Under the pieces are notes generated by a model that worked only from the letters and a program-made list of their open reading frames with translations, was not told where the DNA came from and did no database searches. A stretch of 64,000 nt of DNA from Malachius bipustulatus (taxonomy: Eukaryota; Arthropoda; Insecta; Coleoptera; Melyridae): NCBI GenBank assembly GCA_910589415.1, contig OU342631.1, forward strand, positions 5,146,001 through 5,210,000. The letters are read 5' to 3'. Made by a program: the position numbers and the translations under genes. Of the stretch, positions 2,555 through 64,000 are shown one piece after another (the stretch's first letter is position 1; every line of letters starts with the position of its first letter).

Positions 2555-4045
2555 TACAGGGTGTCCCAAAAGCATAAAACATATCAAAGTCATGTTTTTT
2601 TAAATGGAATGCTCCTATGTTATTGCATTTTTAGATTGTCTGAAAAAAGAAAATAAGATTTGGCTTTTACAGTTGGTGTTTAAATTCAGAAGTTTTTGAG
2701 TTATAAACAAGTATAAAATTAATTTATTAATTAAATAAACGGGATGAAGATGTTTAGCATTAGAATGAGACGGAGATAATTGATTACGTAATTATATAGG
2801 AAATTATCGTTTGTGAATACAGGTGTATGTGTTCTTTTATATCTTGTGACTGACACAAATATTCAGACCTTCTTATTAAAGGTCGGTTTGGCAACTATGG
2901 AAGGTAAGCAGTTCATAATTTCAAGAAATTCTCCAATTTGGTGTTTTATGACCGGAACGAATGTTAATCCTTGAGTTCGAAGTTAAGGGATTAAAATTGA
3001 GTATCTTGGAGCTCGCATACGCCCATTTTATCGAATTATGGAATTATGCATCTTCAATGAAGTTGAATTTTTATATATGCTGCGAAAGGACCCCGCCGCG
3101 GAACCATCACCAACTATGGAAATTGGCTCCTGGTCAAATTAGCCCATAAAAAGTAGTGTTCTTGAGATTTTCGTTTCTGAAAATCAATTTTTTCTCTCAT
3201 AACTGTCCCTTGCATTCACGCATTAGTATACAGGGTGGGCCATCGAAAAGGTAACAAGCCTAATAGTTTGGAAAGTGAAGATGTATGCCAAAAACTCCGA
3301 AACAGGTTTTAAAAACAGAAAAACTCGATTTTGTTATCGAGTGGGACATATTTTCATGACAAATATTAACTACCCAAGTTCACCCTCTTGGCAGGGGTGT
3401 AGCTACCCCTTTGCTTATCATCATAGGGAACAGCTATCGAGTGATACATCATTTGAAAGCTACTTGTATTCTCTTTACAACGATATCCAACATTTTGGGT
3501 TTTGCTTACATACGGGATGGCCCAACGAAAACGTAACTCGCCCTAATAACTTGGAAACTGAAGATGTACGCGAAAAACGCCGAAACAGGTCGATTTTGTT
3601 ATCAAAGTAGGCATATTTTCATGACAAATTTAACTACCCTAGTTCACCCCCTTGGCAGGGGTAGCTACCCCTTTGCTTATCATCATAGGGAACAGCTATC
3701 GAGTGATACATCATTTGAAAACTACTTGAATTCTCTTTACAGCGATATCCAACACTTTGGATTTCGCTTACATACAGGGTCATACCCCTTCCCGGGTTTC
3801 CATCAAATTATCATGTACATCAGAAATTAGTACTTTTAAAAAGAAATTTACCTACCAAATTTCATCGAATTGGAATCAGCCGACTTTGAGCTATTTCAAA
3901 AAAACTAAAATTTTCAAAAGACTTTGAAGCGATCTCACGGACAAACGAAGCATTTTGGTATAGAGATAAGTTTGGTCCGAGCGACTTTTTTTACCTCAGT
4001 AATCTGTGGTTGCTCCATGTCCATGGAATATTGGGACACCCTGTA
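2555..4045. mobile_element. DNA element bounded by TACAGGGTGTCCCAA termini
   Basis: The left end reads TACAGGGTGTCCCAA and the right end TTGGGACACCCTGTA, an exact 15-bp terminal inverted repeat with TA at each edge. The left interior (about 2560-2700) is also found in reverse at about 28790-28925 and in direct orientation near 60650-60790. Inside lies the tandem array at 3229-3772. The ends may belong to different insertions, so the boundary pairing is an inference. Confidence 0.5.
3229..3772 (+). repeat. Head-to-tail pair of about 270-bp repeat units
   Basis: Unit one starts TACAGGGTGGGCCATCG, unit two starts TACGGGATGGCCCAACG near 3511, and a third start (TACAGGGTCATACC) follows at 3773. 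The units share long blocks such as ACATATTTTCATGACAAAT, GGGAACAGCTATCGAGTG and CGATATCCAACA. The first unit reads GAAAAGGTAACAAGCC where the second reads GAAAACGTAACTCGCC. The same two subtypes recur in the same order near 28.6 kb on the other strand. No protein is encoded; open frames here are by-products of the repeat. Confidence 0.85.
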
Positions 4046-4500: not shown

Positions 4501-4819
4501 GGCAGTCAAATTTAAACAACCTCCACTGGCAAAGCACATGATTTGACGATTTTGACATAACTATTACGATAGTGTTTGTTTTTTATTATTTTTATTATCG
4601 GGAACGGAATTACAGGCATTCAAAGTTTACCTATTCCCGGTATTCAAAAAAATTTTTCAATGTGGCATCGTTATTCGAATTCGAGATTTTGAATAATATT
4701 ATCGAATATGTATCCGCGCAACGATTGTTTTAAGCTTTAATGGATTAGACAAAAGATGAATGACATGTTGTCAGACAACATGCCATCCATTTATGTTGTG
4801 CTGTGAGCAGAGGCGGAAA

Positions 4820-4862
4820 TTGTAGACACGTGTTTCGTCCTGTTTGGGACTCTTCAGTACAA
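4820..4862 (-). ncRNA. Hammerhead ribozyme, copy 1
   Basis: Read on the minus strand in order: stem I TTGTA, core CTGAAGA (matches CUGANGA), stem II GTCC with loop CAAACA and GGAC, core GAA, stem III ACACGTGT, cleavage base C, stem I return TACAA. All invariant core bases are present and stems I and II pair perfectly. Stem III is a perfect palindrome with no loop, so the monomer would be strained while two copies could pair through it, as known for Penelope-associated hammerheads. Cleavage is predicted directly after the C at plus position 4825. Confidence 0.9.
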
Positions 4863-5139
4863 TGTATCTACCAACACACAGCACAGTTTAGATCACGGAT
4901 CCCGTGAGCAGAATGCAATGAAATAAAAATAAAAATAAAATAAAAAGGCACGGTGGGTTAGGCTTGCGCCATAGGATACACCCCAGACAGCCATAATGCA
5001 TGCCAAAAATGAGTGCAGTGCCCCCCGGTGTGCATGAAGTAGGTTAAGCCCCTACTAGGCGTTGCTAGACAAAAGATGAATGACATGTTGTCAGACAACA
5101 TGCCATCCATTTATGTTGTGCTGTGAGCAGAGGCGGAAA

Positions 5140-5182
5140 TTGTAGACACGTGTTTCGTCCTGTTTGGGACTCTTCAGTACAA
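5140..5182 (-). ncRNA. Hammerhead ribozyme, copy 2
   Basis: Identical to the copy 320 bp away across all 43 positions, including core CTGAAGA...GAA and the palindromic stem III. Just beyond it AGTCCCAAACAGGA on the plus strand is the inverse of the stem II region, so an alternative hairpin could compete with folding. Predicted cleavage follows the C at plus position 5145. Confidence 0.9.
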
Positions 5183-5641
5183 CTAGTCCCAAACAGGATT
5201 TCTATTTGAACAGAAATCAGTGGCGTACGATCAATGTCTGCTAAAATATGCCGGTAAAATTCTGCACGATCGTGCACCATCGTCACTAATGGAAATAAGA
5301 CGAAATGTGGTACATGAAAAAATGCCCCTTTGATGCGTAATACCTGTATACAAAATTTCATTGAAATATCCAGAGCGGTATTACAGATATTACGAAAAAA
5401 TAATTTATTTTTAATAAAATTTTACCATCCTGTATCTCAAAAGTTAAGACTCTTAGGACATACGTTCTTATGAAAAAACATACTTTTTGGATTTTAATAG
5501 ACACTATAAAAATGTCATAACATATGGAGTGTCCCATTTAAAATAACAAAGTTGGTATCTATATCCGATATAACCTGAAAGGTTGTTATTTTTGGAAATT
5601 TTTCGTTCGATGGATCCTAAGCCCACATGCCTTAAACTATA

Positions 5642-9064: not shown

Positions 9065-9407
9065 CACAGAATAGATGCAATCAGAAGCTAAACTCGCCGG
9101 CGGTGCCTTTGATCTTTTAGAGACAAGCCACAGAATAGAACACCTCTAGCGGCCATTGCTTCAGAGTAGAAACGCAGGCCCGCCACCAGCCCGTCACAGA
9201 ATAGGTACAGTTCTATTCTGTGGGCCCGCATTCAAAACTAATGAAAGCTCATCTCAAATCATGGCGGATCGCTATGCGCCGAGTATCTACTCGGCGCATA
9301 GCCGCGCATAGCGAACTCGGTATTTTTATTGAAGTTTATATTCTGATTGTACCTATTCTGTGGTAATAGGTAATGACACAGAATAGGTACAATCAGAATA
9401 TAAACTT
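9065..9407. repeat. CACAGAATAG cluster with two perfect palindromes
   Basis: CACAGAATAG or its inverse CTATTCTGTG occurs six times here, and once more near 43971. Two hairpins are perfect: CTATGCGCCGAGTA (9272-9285) against 9288-9301 with a 2-base loop, and a 31-bp arm at 9332-9362 against 9377-9407 with a 14-base loop. The second hairpin has CTATTCTGTG at its base of loop. This looks like the ends of several small elements of one family. Confidence 0.65.
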
Positions 9408-12285
9408 TCATTTATATGCTCGTGCAACAAACTGTTCGTCACAATACTTAACATTTTATATACATAATTATAACAGTGGTGACTGAACATATAGCGCCAG
9501 TGATTACAAAATTGGCCGAAACTTTGTTCAGTACAAGGTGGCAAATCAAAAATAAGGCTATTGCCGCTTTTTTTAGGATGAAGTATAATTATTATATCCT
9601 GCATGGACCTGACCTTAAACCACTCTTTAATTCTACCGAAAACTCCTAAACTAGTAGAGGTGTAACGAGGCTAGGTTGCTATATTTGGTCACACTCACAC
9701 TCAATCGATAGACTTTTGCAATAGTAACTTTGAACTTTGAATAATATCATTAAGCTTGCAGACAGTCGCCCTAAATCAATAACGATGCTCTAGACATCTC
9801 TTGGAAATAAGTTAACTGCTATATCTTTTGATAATGCCTGGGAAAACTGGATTGCAAGTTGCCATTTTGACATAATTTTAAAGGTTTGAAAAACTGAAAA
9901 AAAGTTCTTCTAGATACAAAACTAAATGACAAATCTATATTGGAACCATCATAATAAGTTTAATTATTTAAAATCAGAACTCAGCTATACTATATTCCAA
10001 CTGTTTCGAATTAAGTTGGCTATCGATTATGAGAATGATCGACCTCTTTCATATACATTTTACAGCATATTGAAGTGTAAAGGTTCTAGATTGTAGAATG
10101 TTTGTGGTAATGTCATTCTCAGATTAAAGCCATATTGCCAAACGTACTTGAAAATCATGAAACTAATAAATTTATATCTCTACATAATCATATTTTTTTC
10201 TGTAGGTAAGTCTTCCTTGATCAGTCCCAATGCTGTTTCAAATTTGAGCCTTTTTCTGTCACATGTGTTGCTAGCGCATCTTTTCTCGTTCTAGTTTGTA
10301 GTATTTGTTTGGAACACGGTACTTCTAATTTGTAGACCTACCATTAGGTTATAATAAAAAATAAAAATCCATCTGAACGTTCTCGCAATCCAATTATAAT
10401 TATTTTATTTCTGTGAACAAAGTAAGTACAAGTACTTACTTTATCCAAAGTGTTTTTTTTATTAACGCCATATTTCGAATTGCACATATTCATTTATACT
10501 TAATCAAAGAATTTCCACACAATAATAATTTATTTTCTTATGGATACCTACTTATCCCAATAAAAATGTCTCCAAAAGCTGTGAAATTATTGCTACAAGC
10601 AGATAATTTACGACGTAACTGTATTCAAGCAGCAAAGTAATTTTCTAAACCAATTTCAGTTTATTTGGTGAATGTTTCTGACATTTTCGTGTATAAGTTA
10701 TTTATGACATTTTGAATAAAGTATATTTTCGTGTATCGTAAATAATGCCTCAAATTATTAAACATGGTTTCATAAATATTTTACTAAAATCAGAAAAGTG
10801 ATTTATGAAAATGCGAATATTGAAAATTACATATTATATTGATGGTTCGGTTTCAAAGCATTTTCTGCTTTTTGAGGTGCAATAATCTTCGGATTTGGTT
10901 ACCTTCTATACGTAGACGTCTCAGATTTTCTGTTCATTAACTCGAATAGATAATGAAACTGCTAGTCTCTTTTCTGAATATAAAGTTCATGCAAGCATTA
11001 GGGTAGACAGACAGATGTTTTCATACAATTGTTTACCTTCTTGTCTAAAAAATACTATTAAATGATTTAAGACTGTGCCAATATTTCTAGAATCTTAAAA
11101 CTCAGGTAGTGGTTTTACCGTTAATCCCCCAATATAGCTGTCGGTGTGGAATTGTAGAATATGTCAAAACTAAAATGAAACGTTATAGTACCTACTTGAT
11201 TCCACCATCTGCTACCCAGAGACCTTTCCCTTTTCCAATTCTATAACCAGGTAAGGGCCATACGAGTCGGCATTTTTATTTCATTTCATTAGCAATATTA
11301 ATTATTAGTAGATTTAAAAAATTAAAAGCTTCAAAACAAAATGAGCTAAATGAGGGAATAAGCTGTATGTAATAGTATAAAAAATAAACATTTTTATTTT
11401 GGCATTCTAAACGCTAGTATATCCCATTCCAGATGTAATTAAATTAGGGGTGGTTAGGGAAAATTTGAATTATCTCTTCGAATAGGTACACTGAGTTTTG
11501 AACTACTTTTGACAAGCTAAATTTTGAATGGTTATGGATGATTCTAATCAAGTTTGACGCCGATTGTATATTTTAACAAGGCTACGCTGCCAAAATAGCA
11601 AAATAATATTTGGTGTAGGTATACGTAATACGTATAAAACTTACACTAAAAATAGGTTTCATTTGGAATTTTTGGATCTCGTTCATTGTTTTGAATGCTT
11701 TTATAATAAATAGGCCCTTTTGTGTTTTTAAACTACCTTGTCATTTTAAATAATTGAATAAGTTAATATTATTTAAGCCCCAAGATTGACAGGTAATTAA
11801 ATGTGAACTTTTTGACTGCATGAAGTTAATTGAATAATTTAATATCAATTTAATTATTAATGGAATGCCAATAATTTATTTACTTTTTACTGTACTTTTT
11901 ACTAAACCATAGCAACCAAAAGCACATGTTATTGAATTTATTGTTTTCATACTTAAAAATTATTTTATTTTTTGTAATATCCAAAAATTAATCCTAATGG
12001 CATACAAGCAACGTGAAAGTCATTTGAACTTTTTTTAGCTCAAATCAAATGTCCAGGGTATTCAACTTAAGTAAAAAATATCACAGCCAGCTTGAATTTA
12101 AAAACATCCGGAATGGGATATAGAAAAATCTCATACAATCTCGTGTCCATGGCACAAGATGTTCAAGGCAAATACGCTAAACTATACTTGTATATTCATA
12201 TACCCCAGCCCATAATTTCAACACCCATATATCTTATAACAACCTTGCTCCTTTGCTTCTAAAACCATGCCCAATGCATTCAGGT
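9408..12285. other. No gene seen; AT-rich intergenic DNA
   Basis: Open frames up to about 80 codons are unlike any family I know and have no supporting splice or start context. The sequence is AT-rich with scattered transposon scraps. Confidence 0.5.
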
Positions 12286-14179: not shown

Positions 14180-15034
14180 TACAGTGTGTGTCACAGGCAT
14201 GGTACACCCCCTTTTTTTTTCTTTTTTTTTTTTGGAGACAATTTTTTGAAATTTGGTACGTCGCATATTCTCGATAGAGCGCACTTTTTGGCAGAAAATT
14301 GAATTTTTTCCCACATCCGGTTTTTTCGGAAATGTAACCAACTTGTTATTTTTAAATGGGACACCCTATATATTATTATATTTTTGGATTCTATACATTT
14401 GTACGAATCCAACAATACCACATAAGTACCATTTTAAATGACAAATTTGTTTTTATTTCATTTTTTATTTCTCAATTATAGTGTGCCATGACTATTTCGT
14501 TTTACTCCAATTGGATCATCTAATGCTAGAAAAATCGAATTTTTGTTCAAAGTACTAAATTAAGTGATTTATGGATAAATAATGCGCACCGGAATGATTT
14601 TTTGAGCTGAATTCATTTTTTTCAAATGGTACCGTATTGGTACCGAGGTACCATCTACTACTACTTCCAATAAGGGACATTTTGGTGTACCCATTTTGCA
14701 TCTGTGACGAACCCAACTGAAGTCATGGCACACTATAATTGAAAAATAAAAAATTAAATAAAAACAAATTTGACTTTTAAAATGATACTTATGTGGTATT
14801 GTTGGATTCGTACAAATGTATAGAATCCAAAAATATAATAATATAATATAGGGTGTCCCATTTAAAAATAAAAAGTTGGTTACATTTCCGGAAAAACCGG
14901 ATGTGGGAAAACATTCAATTTTCTGCTAAAAAGTGCGCTCTATCGAGAATATGCGACGTACCAAATTTCAAAAAATTATCTCCAAAAATAAAGAAAAAAA
15001 AAGGGGGTGTACCATGCCTGTGACACACACTGTA
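14180..15034. mobile_element. Foldback element, TACAGTGTGTGTCACAGG termini
   Basis: The left end reads TACAGTGTGTGTCACAGG and the right end CCTGTGACACACACTGTA. The arms of about 315 bp match closely (for example CGTCGCATATTCTCGATAGA with its inverse, CCACATCCGG, TATTGTTGGATTCGTACAAA). About 225 bases lie between them. Each arm also holds an internal GGGTGTCCCATTTAAA block, so the arms themselves are composite. No transposase frame. Confidence 0.85.
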
Positions 15035-17393: not shown

Positions 17394-17633
17394 ATCTTCT
17401 ACGGTTAACGAATTTTATTTGCGGAAACTGAATTCAGCTTTGGGATTATTGGAGCATTTTTTGGAAAACAAGAATCGGCTGTTCTGGAGATTTTAGACCA
17501 ACGAACTTGGAGGTCGCTCATAAGTATATCAATAATAAGAGATCAGTCTCTATAAGAGACACTTAAAGACCAGCTAAGGTAAATATAACTTCCAACTTTC
17601 GTACAGTATGTGAAACAAATTACTGACTTATAT

Positions 17634-17681
17634 GATATGCTGATGAGTTCATTGCAAGGACGAAACGGTGCCGTCCGTGTC
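17634..17681 (+). ncRNA. Hammerhead ribozyme, second type
   Basis: In order: stem I GATATG, core CTGATGA, stem II GTTC with loop ATTGCAA and GGAC (one G-U), core GAA, stem III ACGG-TG-CCGT, cleavage base C (17675), stem I return CGTGTC (four Watson-Crick pairs and two G-U). The whole catalytic core is canonical. The stem III strand ACGGTGCCGT is self-complementary in RNA if U-G pairs are allowed, so dimer cleavage is again possible. Stem and loop sequences differ from the 4.8-kb ribozymes, so it is a separate family. No second copy is seen in this window. Confidence 0.82.
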
Positions 17682-18046
17682 TTCAGTCTTCACCTCACAT
17701 GCTTGGCGAAAGTTTTCTAATTTGTTCTGCAAAGAACCTATAGTGGGAAGTTAATCAATTGGAGACTAAAGCCCAATGAATCTCAAATCTAGCTTATCTA
17801 TACAGGACAGGGTGTTTCTTAATAACATGCCAGTACTTCAAGATGTAATTCCTCGAGTCATTTTATGAAGAAAAGTTGATATGAACGTAAAATGTCCACA
17901 ACGGCTGAAATTTTTTGATACTGGGAGTTTGATTTTTAGTTTTTAAGAGTTAAGTACTTTTTATTATCTCCGACTATAGTTTAGATATTTTTTTCAGTGT
18001 TAGGATGTGTTAACGGGACATAAAACCACACACTATATACAGTGTG

Positions 18047-18832: not shown

Positions 18833-19363
18833 AGCGTGATTGGACCATTGTGACACCTCCACTGCCACCGAAGCTCTATCGTGGCTCACATCTACATTAA
18901 TCGCTACATTATGTCGAGCTACATTAATTCCATCAGGTCAGCCTTTTTGAGGAAGCTGACCATTTTGACTGTTGTTAATGTCTCCAAGTCCTCCGGTATC
19001 ATAAAGTCTCTCCCGAAGGTTAAGACCTACATTTTGGTGCTATTTTAGAGTTTATTTATGTTATTTAGTGTTATTTTATGTAGTTACACTTACATAACCG
19101 AAGGTTACCTACACAGTCAAGACCGGTACTTCCTCTTTTTTATAAAAAAAATATATTTTAAGTAGAAAATCTGTATAGCAAAATATCAGTGGCGTACCAG
19201 TTTTTTTTTATTATTATTATTTTTTTAATGTCAAAGGACATGTTTGCAGGGACGCTACTCCACTAGTAGCAATAGAAAAACTTTTCTTACAAAATCAATC
19301 TTACAATTCAATCTTCTCACTATGGTTCAGTGATCAAATTGTGCGATGTAATAATAAGATACA

Positions 19364-19407
19364 TGGTACTGGATGAGTCCCAATTAGGACGAAACACGTG
19401 TCTGCAA
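19364..19407 (+). pseudogene. Decayed hammerhead of the 4.8-kb type
   Basis: The stem II region (GTCC, loop CAATTA, GGAC), GAA, palindromic ACACGTGT and cleavage base C are kept. The first core segment reads CTGGATGA, with an inserted G compared with CTGATGA, and stem I is mispaired (TGGTA against TGCAA). Downstream sequence to about 19485 (TCACAGCACAATAAGAATGA, ATGTCATTCATCTCTT) matches the rest of the 117-bp repeat at 4.8 kb. Catalysis is probably lost. Confidence 0.75.
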
Positions 19408-19658
19408 TTTCCACTTCTACTCACAGCACAATAAGAATGAATGGCATACTAGTTTACAATATTAATATGTCATTCATCTCTTATTGCCTTTATATTGTAC
19501 AGTATAATACCATATGCACATAAAAAGTTAAGACAGGGACATAATGTAAAACGTCGGAGCCGTTTCCGATATACACTGCTTTCAAAATGAAAAATTTTGA
19601 TTTTCACTTGTTTATAATTCTGGAAATGAATCGATTTCGAAACAAGAAGCAGCATATG

Positions 19659-25849: not shown

Positions 25850-28039
25850 AGAATCATGAAAAACCACTTATTAAATTCCTTTAATCATCATTATTATTGA
25901 ATGCTTATAAAATGCTTTAGAAATAATCTCCAATCGGGAATTCCAAGCTATATTCGTTTCTCAAGAAAACAAGAGATTTCCGACTCATCGGGCAAAAGTC
26001 GAAAAAATGTGGCCGAAAGGTGATGCCACTAATAAAGGTCATGTTTTGGGTCATCTACTAATTGATTAAATAGTTTATTTAATTTGAAATTTAATTCTGA
26101 AATGAAGATCAGATGGTCATTTTCCCCTATTGCGAATCACGAATCATTTTCATCGTTTTCAACATTCGATTTTTTCGCTCATAAGTTTAAAAGCTATAAC
26201 CGAACAGTGATTTTTGAAAAAATGCCCTAAGCAGAATTGTACGGTCATGTTCTCTCGATTTTTCGATATTTTAGACTTGAGTCATTTGACTTTTACTACT
26301 TTATGAGAAAAATGGATGAATGGAGCGTTACTAAGCCTCTCATTAGGAGCAAATAGATTTATCTTGTTGATTTTGAAACAACTTTTTACGTGTTCTTTGC
26401 ATGGCACGTTTTGCTCCCTTAAGTTTAAAATAGCAAGCAGAACGATAATTTTTGAAAAAATGTACCCAGTGGTAAGTTCCTAATTATTAGAACAATTAAT
26501 TAACCGTTAATGAACCGTTCATTTCCCATCTGTACGTATGTCCCCATTTAAGGGATGTCAATCTCCAAGGGTTCTGAAGACAGTACTGCGTGTACTGAGA
26601 AGAATGAAAATCTTCATAGTAAAGGCCGATTTCTACTAGCGAAGATCCGTTCAATCCGAAATACACGTTCATCCGAAAATTCAAACTACAAAAAAAAAAT
26701 TTTCTATTATTGACAAGAGTATTTTTGGGAATATCAAACTAATATTATTACGTAGGACATTAAAAAAAAACAAAAATTCCTCATATATGGTGCATGCGAA
26801 TTCTTAATGAATTTAGGTGGACTCCTTTCACAATAGGACACATTTCAACATCGTGTGTTTATGTTGGGTATTTTACCTATAAGATGAATTTGAACACCGG
26901 GAGGCTATGTACCTACCCGACAAAAGGAAGATGTGACATTGTAAAGACATTATTCGCAAGCAATAAAGCTATAAGACCTTTTTCTGCAGGGGAGTATTTG
27001 CAATAAAATTTATTTTATCTTGTTCTCGATACCTCGAAACAGCAAATAATACAAATCTTAAATATCTCAAATATTTGATGATTCCGGCCTGCTCGGCTAC
27101 CAGGTTCTGCCAATTGTCGCTTCGCGTTTGAAGCTCTAGTGGAAATGCAACGGCAGTACTTTACGTTTATCGCTTATTGGGGCGACGCGTCCTGAAGCGA
27201 ATTAAAGCGCTACTGGAAACCGGCCCTCAAGAAGGAAGGAAGATATGTATATATAAAGATTTGAGTCACGTGATCGAATCTGACCTGATACTTCGGAAAT
27301 CGTCTTGACTATCATTACTTGGAAGCATATTGTAACATGAGAACGTCCCGAAACTTTTTCAATATCGACAGCAGCTCTTTGGAGGTCATCGCTAGAAATT
27401 GCCGCAATTACAAAATTAAAAAATAAATAAATAAGTGAATGTTCCAGGGAAACTGTTAGACTCTAACCACAGTATATCTATAACTTCAAGAAGAGTGTAT
27501 TTAAAGGGAAGATTTTTCATAGTCGTAAATAAGAGGCAATCATGCATAGTTAAACACCGTGTTGCATAGAAAAGGTAACATACGGAACACGTATAAAGAA
27601 TATTTCAACAATACTCTGACTATAAATGACATCCCTTCATAGATACAGTTTCCTTGGAAATTACCAAGTTTCCTCTTAGGAAACTATCAGCTTTTGAACC
27701 AGAGTCGCTTGGAATCCTTGTTAATATTCAATGTTATTTTAACTTTCCTATGAAACACAGTGTATATTCACAGTAGAAGGCAGGTAGGAGGATTTCTGAA
27801 GGTAAGAATATGATGGGTAAGGAATTATCGTAATTTATAGACGTAAATATCTGTCAGCAGGGATGATTTTTGGTAACAATGGGCCATGCTCATCTATGCA
27901 AAAGGGTGCAAATATTCAGGTAGTTAAGGGATGATCTGTGATGGTCTAGTGGAGAAAGTCGCTAAAATTTATGAGTTTCTTTATACATTCTACAGAACAA
28001 TACAGTCAGGGGCGGATTTACCTCCCTGGAGGTTATACA
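25850..28039. other. No gene seen
   Basis: AT-rich in the first half and more balanced in 26.5-27.9 kb. Short frames (about 60-70 codons) have no recognisable product. CAGGGGCGGATTTACCTCC at 28009 resembles a hAT-type terminal repeat, but I see no partner end. Confidence 0.4.
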
Positions 28040-28630
28040 TACAGGATGGGCCATCGAAAAGGTAACAAGCTTAATAATTTGAAAAGTGAAGATGTATGCG
28101 AAGAACGCCGAAACAGGTCGATTTTGTTATCTGGGGGGACATATTTTCGTGACAAATTTAACTACCCAAGTTCACCACCTTGGCAGGGGTAGCTACCCCT
28201 TTGCTTATCATCATAGGGAACAGCTATCGAGTGATACATCATTTGAAAGCTACTTGAATTCTTTTTACAACGATATCCAACATTTTGGGATTCGCTTACA
28301 TACAGGCTGGCCTACATACAAGTGATTAAGGCGAGTTACGTTTTCGTTGGGCCACCCTGCATGTAAACGGAACCCAAAATGTTGGATATCGTTGTAAAGA
28401 GAATTCAAGTAGCTTTCAAATGATGTTTTTTTTGAACTCGATAGCTGTTCCCTATGATGATAAGCAAAGAGTTAGCTACCCCTGCCAAGGGGGTGAACTT
28501 GGGTAGGTAAATTTGTCACGAAAATAAATGTCCCCCTCGATAACAAAATCGACCTGTTTCGGCGTTTTTCGCATACATCTTCACTTTCCAATCTATTAGG
28601 CTTGTTACCTTTTCGATGGCCCACCCTGTA
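28040..28630. repeat. Head-to-head pair of the 270-bp repeat (large palindrome)
   Basis: A plus-strand unit (28040-28310, starting TACAGGATGGGCCATCG) faces a minus-strand array ending at 28630 (CGATGGCCCACCCTGTA). The minus-strand array contains one full unit and then the start of the alternative subtype (GGCGAGTTACGTTTTCG, read in plus sense, at 28331). The two arms match over about 270 bp and would form a long hairpin. No protein. Confidence 0.85.
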
Positions 28631-28741
28631 TAGTAATTACCAGCGTTTATATCTACAATACATAAAGACTTGTCACCCTAATCAAATTAAAAAAAAATGG
28701 TATTGGGTTTCTACCATTACGTATAATATGTATAAAAAATA

Positions 28742-35869: not shown

Positions 35870-36930
35870 GCAACAGCAAGGAAAAAACTTGAGAAGATCC
35901 AGAGACATGCGTGTCTCTGCATCACAGGAGCAAGGAGAACCTGCTCAACCGCTGCGTTGGAAGTAATCCAGGATCTGACACTACTACATTTGGTGAAAGA
36001 GAGAAAAGCTGGAGAAGCTCTAGGTACTTAGGATGTCAAGAGTAGGAATCAGGAGAGTCCGGCGAGCCACTGAGGATCGACCCTTGGGTGGCTGTGAGGG
36101 GCTCCTGACACTGCCAAAAGACAAAACTATTAAGAAATTCAGTTTCGAGAGGAACTTCATCACGAAACTGTCCACGAAAGAGAAATGGAACAACACCTCC
36201 AACTGTACTCTCAAAGAAGGTACGATCAAATGGTACACAGACGGCGAGGGAACCGGGGCAGGAATCTAAGAGCCACGCACCATGTACTCCTAACCAATGG
36301 GAAAATCCCCAACCATACCACAAGCGGAATTACACGCAATAGAAGTATGCGCCCAAATAAACCTCGACAGAAACTACAAAAGCAAAGAAATATAAATATT
36401 GACGGATAGTCAAGCAGCCATAAAGAACGTGCCCGCTCATTGGCAAGAAAATGAGCATCAACACCCTTCATAGGACCAGAACCATTCTGTCGTGGCTTCG
36501 AAGATACTTTCTTCAAGGCAGTAGAACTCCAAAAGGAAGAGGAAAAACTGAGAGAAACTCATTGGAGGAACCTTTCAGGGTTGAGACAAGCCAAAGAACT
36601 TCTCGGGAACTTCAACCGAGAGAGGTCGAAGATACTCTTCAACCTCAGCAAGGAACGTCTCAGAACGCTGACGGGATTCCCAACGGGACATTGCAAGCTT
36701 AAGGAACATCTGAGGAAGTTAGGCATAGAAGAGAACGGCGTGTGTAGATTCTGCGGGAAAGGAGACGAGCACCACGTCACCTGCTGCTTAACTGCGATGC
36801 GATAGAACTCAAAAGAAGTAATGTTCTGGGCTACCACCAGCTAGAGGCAGGGAACTTACCCGACCTTGATCCTCTCAAAATCCTGAAGTTTCTCAAGGAA
36901 ACGGACTTGAAGAAGGTGCTTCACTAAAGG
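35870..36930 (+). pseudogene. Degenerate LINE ORF2, end of RT plus RNase H
   Basis: Conceptual pieces occur in order but in shifting frames: an RT-linker region (KLEKIQRHACLCITGARRTC, LHLVKERKAGEALG), then FERNFITKLSTKEKWNN and the RNase H start KWYTDGEGTGAGI near 36217-36266, then ELHAIEVCAQINLD and ILTDSQAAIKNVP. A C-terminal region follows with a zinc-knuckle-like CRFCGKGDEHHVTCC near 36745-36790 and a final KILKFLKETDLKKVLH. Stops and frameshifts separate the pieces. RNase H after RT fits the R1/I-type LINE groups of insects. Non-functional. Confidence 0.82.
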
Positions 36931-62437: not shown

Positions 62438-64000
62438 TTAACGGGTCCTGGCACGGAGTCCCGCCACCTCGACGGTATTCTTGGTAGCTTGTCGATAACG
62501 ACCCTCTTGCTCGAGTCGAGAAGCAAGCGGCAAGCGCTGGTGAGTCCCGCCTTTCACTATCAGGGTGCTACGTTCGCTCTCCCGTCGCAAAACCTCCGCC
62601 ACCGTGGCCCTGATCTGTGGGCATATTGCAGGAGCGTGATACTCTTGAGTGGTGCGCAGCGGCATGTCCAGTCGCAGTTCCAGCACCGACTCGCGTCGGT
62701 ATCGCGGATCAGCGCTGCCCAGTGCACGCTCCGAATGAGGGCGACGGTAAGCACGTGCTAGTGGACGCTCTTCGCAAGGCAACAAGATCGGCTCGTGTCG
62801 CAGAACCCAACAGTCGCGATCATCGTCGAATGTGGCTAGTCGGAGAAGTCGGGCACGCTCTTCCGGCGGCACGAATCCGTCGATAATCATGAAATGACGC
62901 CGCAACTGGCGGCCTAGCTCGTCATTGGCCTCTTCCAGCTCTCCCCGGTTCGCCAAGTAATCTTCTCGGTTGTCTCGTATCTCCTGCCTGACCGATTGCA
63001 GCTTACTGAGCAGACGCCGTAGTCTCTCCCGCTTGTACTCGACCTGCTGTTGGAGGCTGGCGAACACTTGACGTAGCTCGGTGCACGTTTCCTCCTCAAG
63101 CTCGATCCGCTGCTGCATCTCCACTTCACGTTTCCTGCGCTCTGCTATTTCTTGCCGCTGTCGCTCCAGCCTCAACTCGTTCTCGTTCACACTGTCGACA
63201 ATACTCTTTCCGTTGCCCGCTCCACCGCCTCCGTGTACCATTTGTTTTTCCAAGGTCCGCAGTTTCCTTGCTAATTCATCTATCTCCATCTTGCTTGCTT
63301 CTATTTTCTTTTCTTTCTCACCTCGCTCTTCTTCTACATCTTCATCCTGTAGATCGTCATCGTCATCATCGCTCTCATCTGCCTCGTCGACACCGTTCTG
63401 GGGTTGAGAGAACGACTGACGGCCAGCAGATCGTTCAGAGATGAGCTGTCTCAGACGCACGATTTCGGCCTGTAGTTCCAGCAAACGGGCATCTTTGATG
63501 TCTTCATTACGTATCGGCTGATTCTTGATACTCTTGGCACGGTAGGCATAGCGAAGAGTAATTGCAGTTTCTTCATAGTTAGTGCATGCAGGCCCTACGT
63601 TTGCGATCATGATCGTCTTACTGTTGCCCCCCAGGGAGTCTTGCAGCAAGCGAGTCAGTTTAGAATCTCGATACGGTACGTGAGCACTACGCTCGGCTAG
63701 GGCATAAATTACGTTTCCTAACGATGAAAGTGCTTTATTGATTTTAGTGGCCTCGCGGAGACGGTCACCAGTTGCTCCCGTCTTCGACTGACGCTCGCTG
63801 CCCGCCAGGTCTACCAAGTTCAATTTCCCGACTTTAACCGCGCCTCCACCAGTTTCTGCCATCTCCACGGCAATCTGAAAGATGGCGTGCGAGCGGCTGC
63901 TGTGCTCGTTCATGTCGGTGGCTCCAGTGGTGCGATTTCGGTGTCCCAGACGCATCGCTCGTATCATGTCTCCGGAACTGCGACAGGTCTGACTGTGTAG
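62438..64000 (-). CDS. Klp68D: Kinesin-II motor subunit, KIF3B/Klp68D type (5' part missing)
   Basis: The frame is open from the window edge to TAA at 62440-62438: 520 residues, with no intron in 1.56 kb. Visible motor parts, counted from the fragment start: switch [12 protein letters not shown] (31-41), switch [10 protein letters not shown] (62-69), [19 protein letters not shown], and neck linker [16 protein letters not shown] (155-170). An acidic stretch follows ([20 protein letters not shown], about 204-224), then a coiled coil to about 360. The tail has [31 protein letters not shown] and YHAPAICPQ, which match KIF3B rather than KIF3A tails. The P-loop and the start of the motor lie beyond the edge. 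KIF3B pairs with KIF3A and KAP in kinesin-II, the plus-end motor of cilia assembly (anterograde intraflagellar transport) and axonal transport. The GC-rich coding DNA contrasts with the AT-rich flank. The last 50 residues are not conserved that I can tell. Confidence 0.93.

Follow-up and report, generated by a model that had tools for sequence, protein, structure and literature searches.

Hammerhead retrozymes with paired fixed ends and head-to-head arms in the genome of the beetle Malachius bipustulatus

The window, that is, the whole stretch of 64,000 nt analysed here, carried an insertion of a hammerhead-containing repeat designated family A, a decayed relative of it, and a copy of a second, unrelated hammerhead repeat designated family B. 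The features, with unit positions (u) counted on the 320-bp family A unit from u1 at 4746, were as follows.

4746 to 5182, strand unassigned: family A insertion, one-armed, 1.37 units of 320 bp, defined by a 117-bp repeat 320 bp apart and by comparison of its ends with 39 other loci.
4819 to 4863, minus strand: type I hammerhead HHR1, cut between 4825 and 4824 (Rfam RF00163, 58.7 bits).
4877 to 4885, minus strand: 5' strand of the outer stem I helix of HHR1, pairing with 4797-4805 in the predicted fold.
4916 to 4948, plus strand: site b and the subsequent AAATA tract, where outer ends of other loci lie at about u171-u182 (35 of 67 outer ends, 40 loci).
5139 to 5183, minus strand: type I hammerhead HHR2, cut between 5145 and 5144, predicted to be blocked in its native flank (RF00163, 55.5 bits).
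5185 to 5198, plus strand: inverted stub, a 14-nt exact inverted copy of 5158-5171 (stem-loop II of HHR2; unit positions u106 to u93) with a 13-nt loop, found by repeat search.
17565 to 17791 (approximate), plus strand: family B copy, delimited by blastn against 20 loci; it contains a type I hammerhead with a full core (17634-17681, cut after 17675).
19301 to 19490, plus strand: decayed family A relative found by blastn, its hammerhead core with an extra G (RF00163, 32.2 bits, below the cut-off of 34).

The copies of the 117-bp direct repeat, 4746-4862 and 5066-5182, were 100% identical and spaced 320 bp apart, as described in an earlier, sequence-only reading of this DNA, and the minus-strand hammerhead which that reading placed in each copy was recovered in both by RF00163 (type I hammerhead), whose gathering score is 34. 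A descriptor of the full core and three stems matched 3 sites in the window versus 1 in 150 simulated 64-kb windows at the loosest setting. Stem III (ACACGUGU) has space for two pairs and a tetraloop within one molecule, a form described as similar to invertebrate hammerheads in the excerpted text of PMC7229834. The monomer predicted from the two cuts is 5144 to 4825, 320 nt, so that a junction joining 4826 to 5145, as formerly proposed, was off by one.

The two hammerheads had been called identical, which holds over the 117 bp, but their contexts differ, HHR1 having an extended stem I and HHR2 lying beside the inverted stub. In the predicted fold, stem I of HHR1 is extended by pairing with the unit interior and has an internal loop; 7 of the 9 pairs of the outer helix were retained in the decayed relative. 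Pairing probabilities of HHR1 in a 301-nt context were 0.97-0.98 for stem II, 0.21-0.50 for stem I and 0.01 for stem III, the last value applying to both family A hammerheads, and in a 96-nt context its hammerhead fold lay 2.2 kcal/mol above the minimum-energy fold. For HHR2 the difference was 9.5 kcal/mol, and stems I and II had a probability of 0.0 at four transcript lengths. On the minus strand, 5185-5198 precedes HHR2, which lies at the edge of the element, and is exactly complementary to stem-loop II of this hammerhead; in a transcript starting at 5183, which lacks the stub, stem II reached 0.85-0.86 and stem I only 0.01-0.02. HHR2 is thus predicted to be sequestered in a hairpin with the stub instead of forming a hammerhead. 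Because of this block, and because stem I is weak even without the stub, the window locus is unlikely to yield a clean monomer, and the 320-nt RNA once expected from cutting at both of its ribozymes is not supported by the folding model.

The sequence-only reading had overlooked both the decayed relative and the family B hammerhead. Over 175 aligned bases, 143 of the relative were identical to the family A copy; its stems II and III were unchanged and 4 of 21 stem I pairs were broken. The family B hammerhead scored 20.7 bits, below the RF00163 cut-off, was also matched by the core and stem descriptor, and had a fold 6.4 kcal/mol above the minimum. A weaker hammerhead-like site at about 16598 on the minus strand, with one core mismatch (CTGGTGA) and stems of 4, 5 and 5 pairs, may be due to chance. 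Comparison of the family A and family B sequences gave p 0.11, and that of the A1 middle segment with the A2 flank yielded a T-rich match only (p 0.007).

Elsewhere in the window, the reading frame at 62441-64000 (minus strand) encoded a kinesin matching Klp68D-like proteins with 59-66% identity; of its 31 best matches, 26 had an organism name, and all 26 belonged to what we take to be beetle genera (Coleoptera). No reverse transcriptase domain was detected in the 16 reading frames run against Pfam, out of 123 stop-to-stop frames of at least 70 aa, and a protein search with the G-patch ORF gave no matches. The frame at 36455-36802 (plus strand) presumably resembles the C terminus of a protein from a non-LTR retrotransposon, and had no Pfam match. 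Sub-threshold matches to Rfam microRNA families were observed on both strands of 9266-9443 (best mir-576, 54.4 bits, gathering score 99), which is probably a palindromic mobile element. Long palindromes with arms of 100-165 nt, 91-96% complementary, were located at 14215-15002 and 28039-28631, and a repeat family was common to about 3.2-3.8 kb and 28.0-28.6 kb.

Genome searches covered the 544-Mb assembly containing the window. The search for further repeat copies and tandem units, suggested in the sequence-only reading, returned at least 215 matches to the 437-bp query (40 of 1127 candidates scored), and a first set of 40 loci (the window and 39 others) among the matches listed was mapped on the 320-bp unit and held about 202 units. 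Pieces below 25 bp were left out of the family A counts, as were arms below 100 bp in the analyses of variants, conservation and ends. The copies were head-to-tail arrays of the unit, the longest arm having about 11 units. The common form, which the earlier reading had missed, was a head-to-head pair: in 27 of the 40 loci a plus array was followed by a minus array, with the ribozyme sense outward from the centre, and the opposite order, with the sense inward, was found in none of the 40. The unit has a G+C content of 0.45 and is non-coding, the longest stop-to-stop frame in the circular unit being 52 aa.

The outer ends of these arrays fell almost entirely at two sites 148 nt apart. Among 67 outer ends, 31 were at site a (about u1), 35 at site b (about u173, the start of the AAATA tract) and 1 elsewhere, whereas only 3 of 48 inner ends fell within the windows of these sites. 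One end of each kind was present in 25 of the 27 two-armed loci (12 a/b and 13 b/a; binomial 2.8e-6), the exceptions being L037 (other/a) and L047 (b/b, complex); the b label of L030 is weak, its left end being plain poly-A. Each of the 13 one-armed loci had one fixed end. They include L044, which has 20 nt of the b tract past its inner end and on a second look would be two-armed a/b, and the window copy, with its outer end at site a (4746) and a variable inner end at 5182; its stub at 5185-5198 was read as an aborted second arm.

A search of the same genome with RF00163 gave 74 sites above the cut-off among the 74 scored (of 73,468 candidates), versus none in 14 control genomes. Of these, 52 were 58.7-bit sites on contig C1, where the neighbouring opposite pairs among the sites listed were head-to-head in five of five cases, one of them (L041) already in the first set. 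A second set of 16 more loci, 4 picked as opposite pairs and 12 by list order, had 24 of 25 outer ends at a or b, and 8 of 9 two-armed loci were hetero-ended, including all five among the 12 list-order loci. The exception, L072, starts with an apparent remnant of the b tract. Two inner ends were also at fixed sites, u1 in L074 and u181 in L084.

Target-site duplications (TSDs) of at least 6 bp flanked 24 of the 27 two-armed loci, compared with 61 of 702 mismatched flank pairs; their median length was 12 bp, counting bases that also belong to the element. This mismatched control covered the two-armed loci of the first set. When wider gaps were allowed, TSDs of this kind were found at 7 of the 13 one-armed loci. 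Within the first set, the automatic test found none in L018, L027, L035, L044 and the window, and TSDs of only 4-5 bp in L023, L024, L037 and L047; that of L044 was seen by eye once its 20-nt second arm was counted, and the window copy has none that is defensible, its flanks sharing GGAT at best. In the second set, 12 of 16 loci had a TSD of at least 8 bp, the mismatched-flank control coming from the first set only; L075 had none by the automatic test, and L072 and L078 had 4-5 bp, the flanks of L072 sharing TTACGATAGT by eye. The A+T content was 76% within 15 bp of the element ends versus 66% in distal flanks (p 5e-7). With its multicopy 320-bp arrays, intact hammerheads, TSDs and lack of an ORF, the element is indeed retrozyme-like, as first proposed.

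Divergence between units was 0.28% within arms and 0.18% from one arm of a locus to the other, compared with 1.2% from locus to locus. In loci with at least two units in both arms, and with u171-204 omitted, 17 variants (11 loci) were fixed in both arms, several of them subfamily markers common to many loci, none was fixed in one arm only, and 35 occurred in a subset of units; among one-unit arms, some variants were present in one arm only (e.g. L029 and L032). The shared variants would fit one circle copied repeatedly from both sides, but arrays could be equally uniform after gene conversion between inverted arms or when copied from a linear multimer, and a single circle is therefore not proved by them.

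Family B, searched with 17580-17740 as the query, had at least 42 matches in the genome (40 of 1301 candidates scored). In a sample of 20 loci, 18 had a full-core hammerhead, 24 in total. The unit, with a period of 573 nt taken from the tandem locus L056 (224 nt identical), has a G+C content of 0.31 and is likewise non-coding (longest stop-to-stop frame 71 aa in the circular unit). Its arms ended about 116-138 or 161-171 nt past the cut, except for a truncated arm in L059 (70-75), placing the two end sites about 37 nt apart. Opposite pairs were head-to-head in five of five loci, and each of the four clean two-armed loci had one long and one short arm and a TSD of 8-12 bp; as 12 mismatched controls gave 0-9 bp, this small test is a weak one. 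In L052 (2664-4355) and L057 (2482-4173), a near-perfect palindrome of about 1.7 kb adjoined two family B copies.

Family A is a multicopy beetle member of the metazoan non-LTR retrozymes. As described in the excerpted PMC7229834, these have a type I hammerhead, a non-coding unit of 170-400 nt in tandem copies, low G+C content, no ORF and, when present, TSDs of more than 4 bp, to which those of family A are similar; the 320-nt unit of family A falls inside this range and the 573-nt unit of family B outside it. The beetle elements differ from them by the two fixed end sites and head-to-head arms, and the words "inverted" and "head-to-head" are absent from the text of PMC7229834. Another insect repeat, the pDo500 satellite of Dolichopoda cave crickets, also has a hammerhead more conserved than the rest, but is a satellite of about 500 bp, and the part of PMC2837043 compared here mentions neither fixed ends nor inverted arms. 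Searches of the open-licence literature, which leaves outside two papers of 2014 and 2017 on hammerheads of Penelope-like elements (PLEs), found no paper combining retrozymes with Coleoptera and, among the papers listed and the passages compared, no description of a paired-end, head-to-head footprint. The beetle element is a new retrozyme, distinguished by its paired-end, head-to-head insertion structure. Scans with the hammerhead core pattern gave no matches in viral contigs and one in GTDB genomes, an exact stem II core pattern at 3766-3786 (minus strand) of L001, from a CPR2 bacterium MAG, where no Rfam hammerhead was found at the gathering score. A search of the phage collection gave no match.

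Closer parallels in end structure were observed in PLEs. In the passages available from PMC3846280, inverted pLTRs are mostly head-to-head, TSDs measure 8-10 bp and the tail 31 bp; together with the portions of PMC11167929 compared, these shared features extend to AT-rich targets, two internal start sites of reverse transcription, a tail of 30-40 bp and a type I hammerhead. This end layout (inverted copies, 8-10 bp TSD, 30-40 bp tail) was found in family B, whose end-site gap (about 37 nt) is comparable to the PLE tail, equated in PMC11167929 with the stretch between the two start sites; family A has the same layout with sites 148 nt apart. Both beetle families differ from PLEs in having no ORF for a reverse transcriptase or GIY-YIG nuclease, and in having stem III.

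From the paired fixed ends, head-to-head arms, TSDs and shared variants, which can be read directly, we infer a likely course of cleavage, circularisation and double priming, in which a single, probably circular RNA would be reverse transcribed from two internal sites, with both cut target strands as primers and, probably, the enzyme of a PLE. A staggered cut at an AT-rich target would expose two 3' ends, each of which would prime on the same RNA, one near position 79 and the other near position 227 (numbered from the hammerhead cut). Both cDNAs would then proceed round the template for variable distances, and the two would be joined at a variable junction; if one side was not extended or was aborted, a one-armed copy such as that of the window would result. 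That the enzyme of insertion is that of a PLE, the helper already suggested by the sequence-only reading, is fairly likely, and is favoured by the two fixed end sites, head-to-head arms, short duplications and AT-rich targets, as published for PLEs in the parts of PMC3846280 and PMC11167929 compared. Both strands are cleaved and extended by the PLE protein PAc, which favours AT-rich DNA and begins synthesis inside its RNA, at positions spaced by the length of the PLE tail (PMC11167929). For PAc, no difference in start site between the strands was observed and the hammerhead was dispensable in vitro (PMC11167929), which was counted against the reading of double priming. The helper question is testable, because the helper's own copies should share the paired fixed ends.

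L1 twin priming uses a linear, polyadenylated mRNA as template. Double priming of that kind, by a LINE and not a PLE, is unlikely to account for the beetle elements, although both target strands prime in L1 and inverted copies with TSDs result (PMC2837659, in part), and the TSDs reported for hammerhead repeats of Nematostella, 15 bp long, have been compared with LINEs (PMC4918200, in excerpt). The beetle elements differ from L1 insertions by two fixed internal sites and multi-unit arms; the fixed internal starts (one of each kind) and the tail of 37 nt in family B correspond to what the portions of PMC11167929 and PMC3846280 compared describe for PLEs. Furthermore, no poly(A) tail was copied, and site b sits in a U-rich stretch of the RNA.

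An inverted arm would also arise from a single priming event if the target-primed cDNA snapped back at its 3' end and copied itself, and self-priming has been proposed for PLEs (PMC3846280, in part). The inner junctions, tabulated for 24 of the 27 two-armed loci (three with more than two pieces were left out), were variable, with overlaps of -15 to +6 bases and one of 60 (L030, A-rich end). Loops shorter than 50 nt were present in 10 of the 24, above chance (p 0.002; 9 of 23 without L030, p 0.006), and inverted stubs of at least 11 nt in 2 of 13 one-armed loci versus 7 of 1600 random flank pieces; both the short loops and the window's 14-nt stub with its 13-nt loop suit fold-back, and the excess of short loops was counted against double priming. 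However, loops exceeded 100 nt at 14 of the 24 junctions, and fold-back predicts a second end at the same site or at random, whereas two different fixed sites were found in 25 of 27 and 8 of 9 two-armed loci of the two sets. Two priming events are therefore favoured over self-priming, which appears distinctly improbable as a general origin of the arms, and a pure fold-back reading of the window stub was given up for double priming in view of the two different fixed ends elsewhere. Fold-back may still resolve some insertions, and the window stub may be such a case.

The arrays of up to about 11 units would also be compatible with satellite DNA in which unequal crossing-over and transposition at the DNA level account for growth and spread and the hammerhead is a passenger. 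This is very unlikely, since the copies are small dispersed insertions with TSDs and fixed ends and the hammerhead is less variable than other parts of the unit. Locus-majority differences from the window unit numbered 3/1800 site-by-locus cells in the hammerhead, 3/2080 in u119-170, 13/2920 in u1-73, 29/1320 in the A tract and 67/4680 in u204-320; the p-value for the hammerhead against u204-320 (6e-7) is generous, because loci share subfamily variants and are not independent. The hammerhead core columns differed in 4/2428 unit cells. Fold-back chimeric reads, which are known from long-read data and could produce inverted arms as an assembly artefact, can be dismissed almost completely because they would invert the flanks too, and the sequences on the two sides of these loci are different, with only a short TSD in common, and the end rule repeats across loci.

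Double priming on one, probably circular, RNA at two internal sites is accordingly the reading retained. Counted against it were the loci breaking the end rule (L037, L047 and L072), together with the fold-back stub of the window and its lack of a defensible TSD, and the stem III probability of 0.01 in the energy model.

A wider form of this reading, with about even chances of being right, is a symmetrical double target-primed reverse transcription for animal retrozymes, in which a single RNA circle would offer two dedicated internal start sites, one per cut strand, both cDNAs would roll round the same circle, a PLE would supply the enzyme, and the distance between the sites would be the general origin of the PLE tail. 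Retrozyme repeats were described in the consulted portion of a 2020 review as lacking any conserved motif that would allow the helper to be deduced (PMC7761336); the paired fixed ends are such a mark, and point to a concrete way in which PLEs could acquire their inverted copies and tails. Were every insertion the product of a single template molecule, each array would record one RNA, and if the wider reading is true, the question of the retrozyme helper and that of the PLE tail would share one answer.
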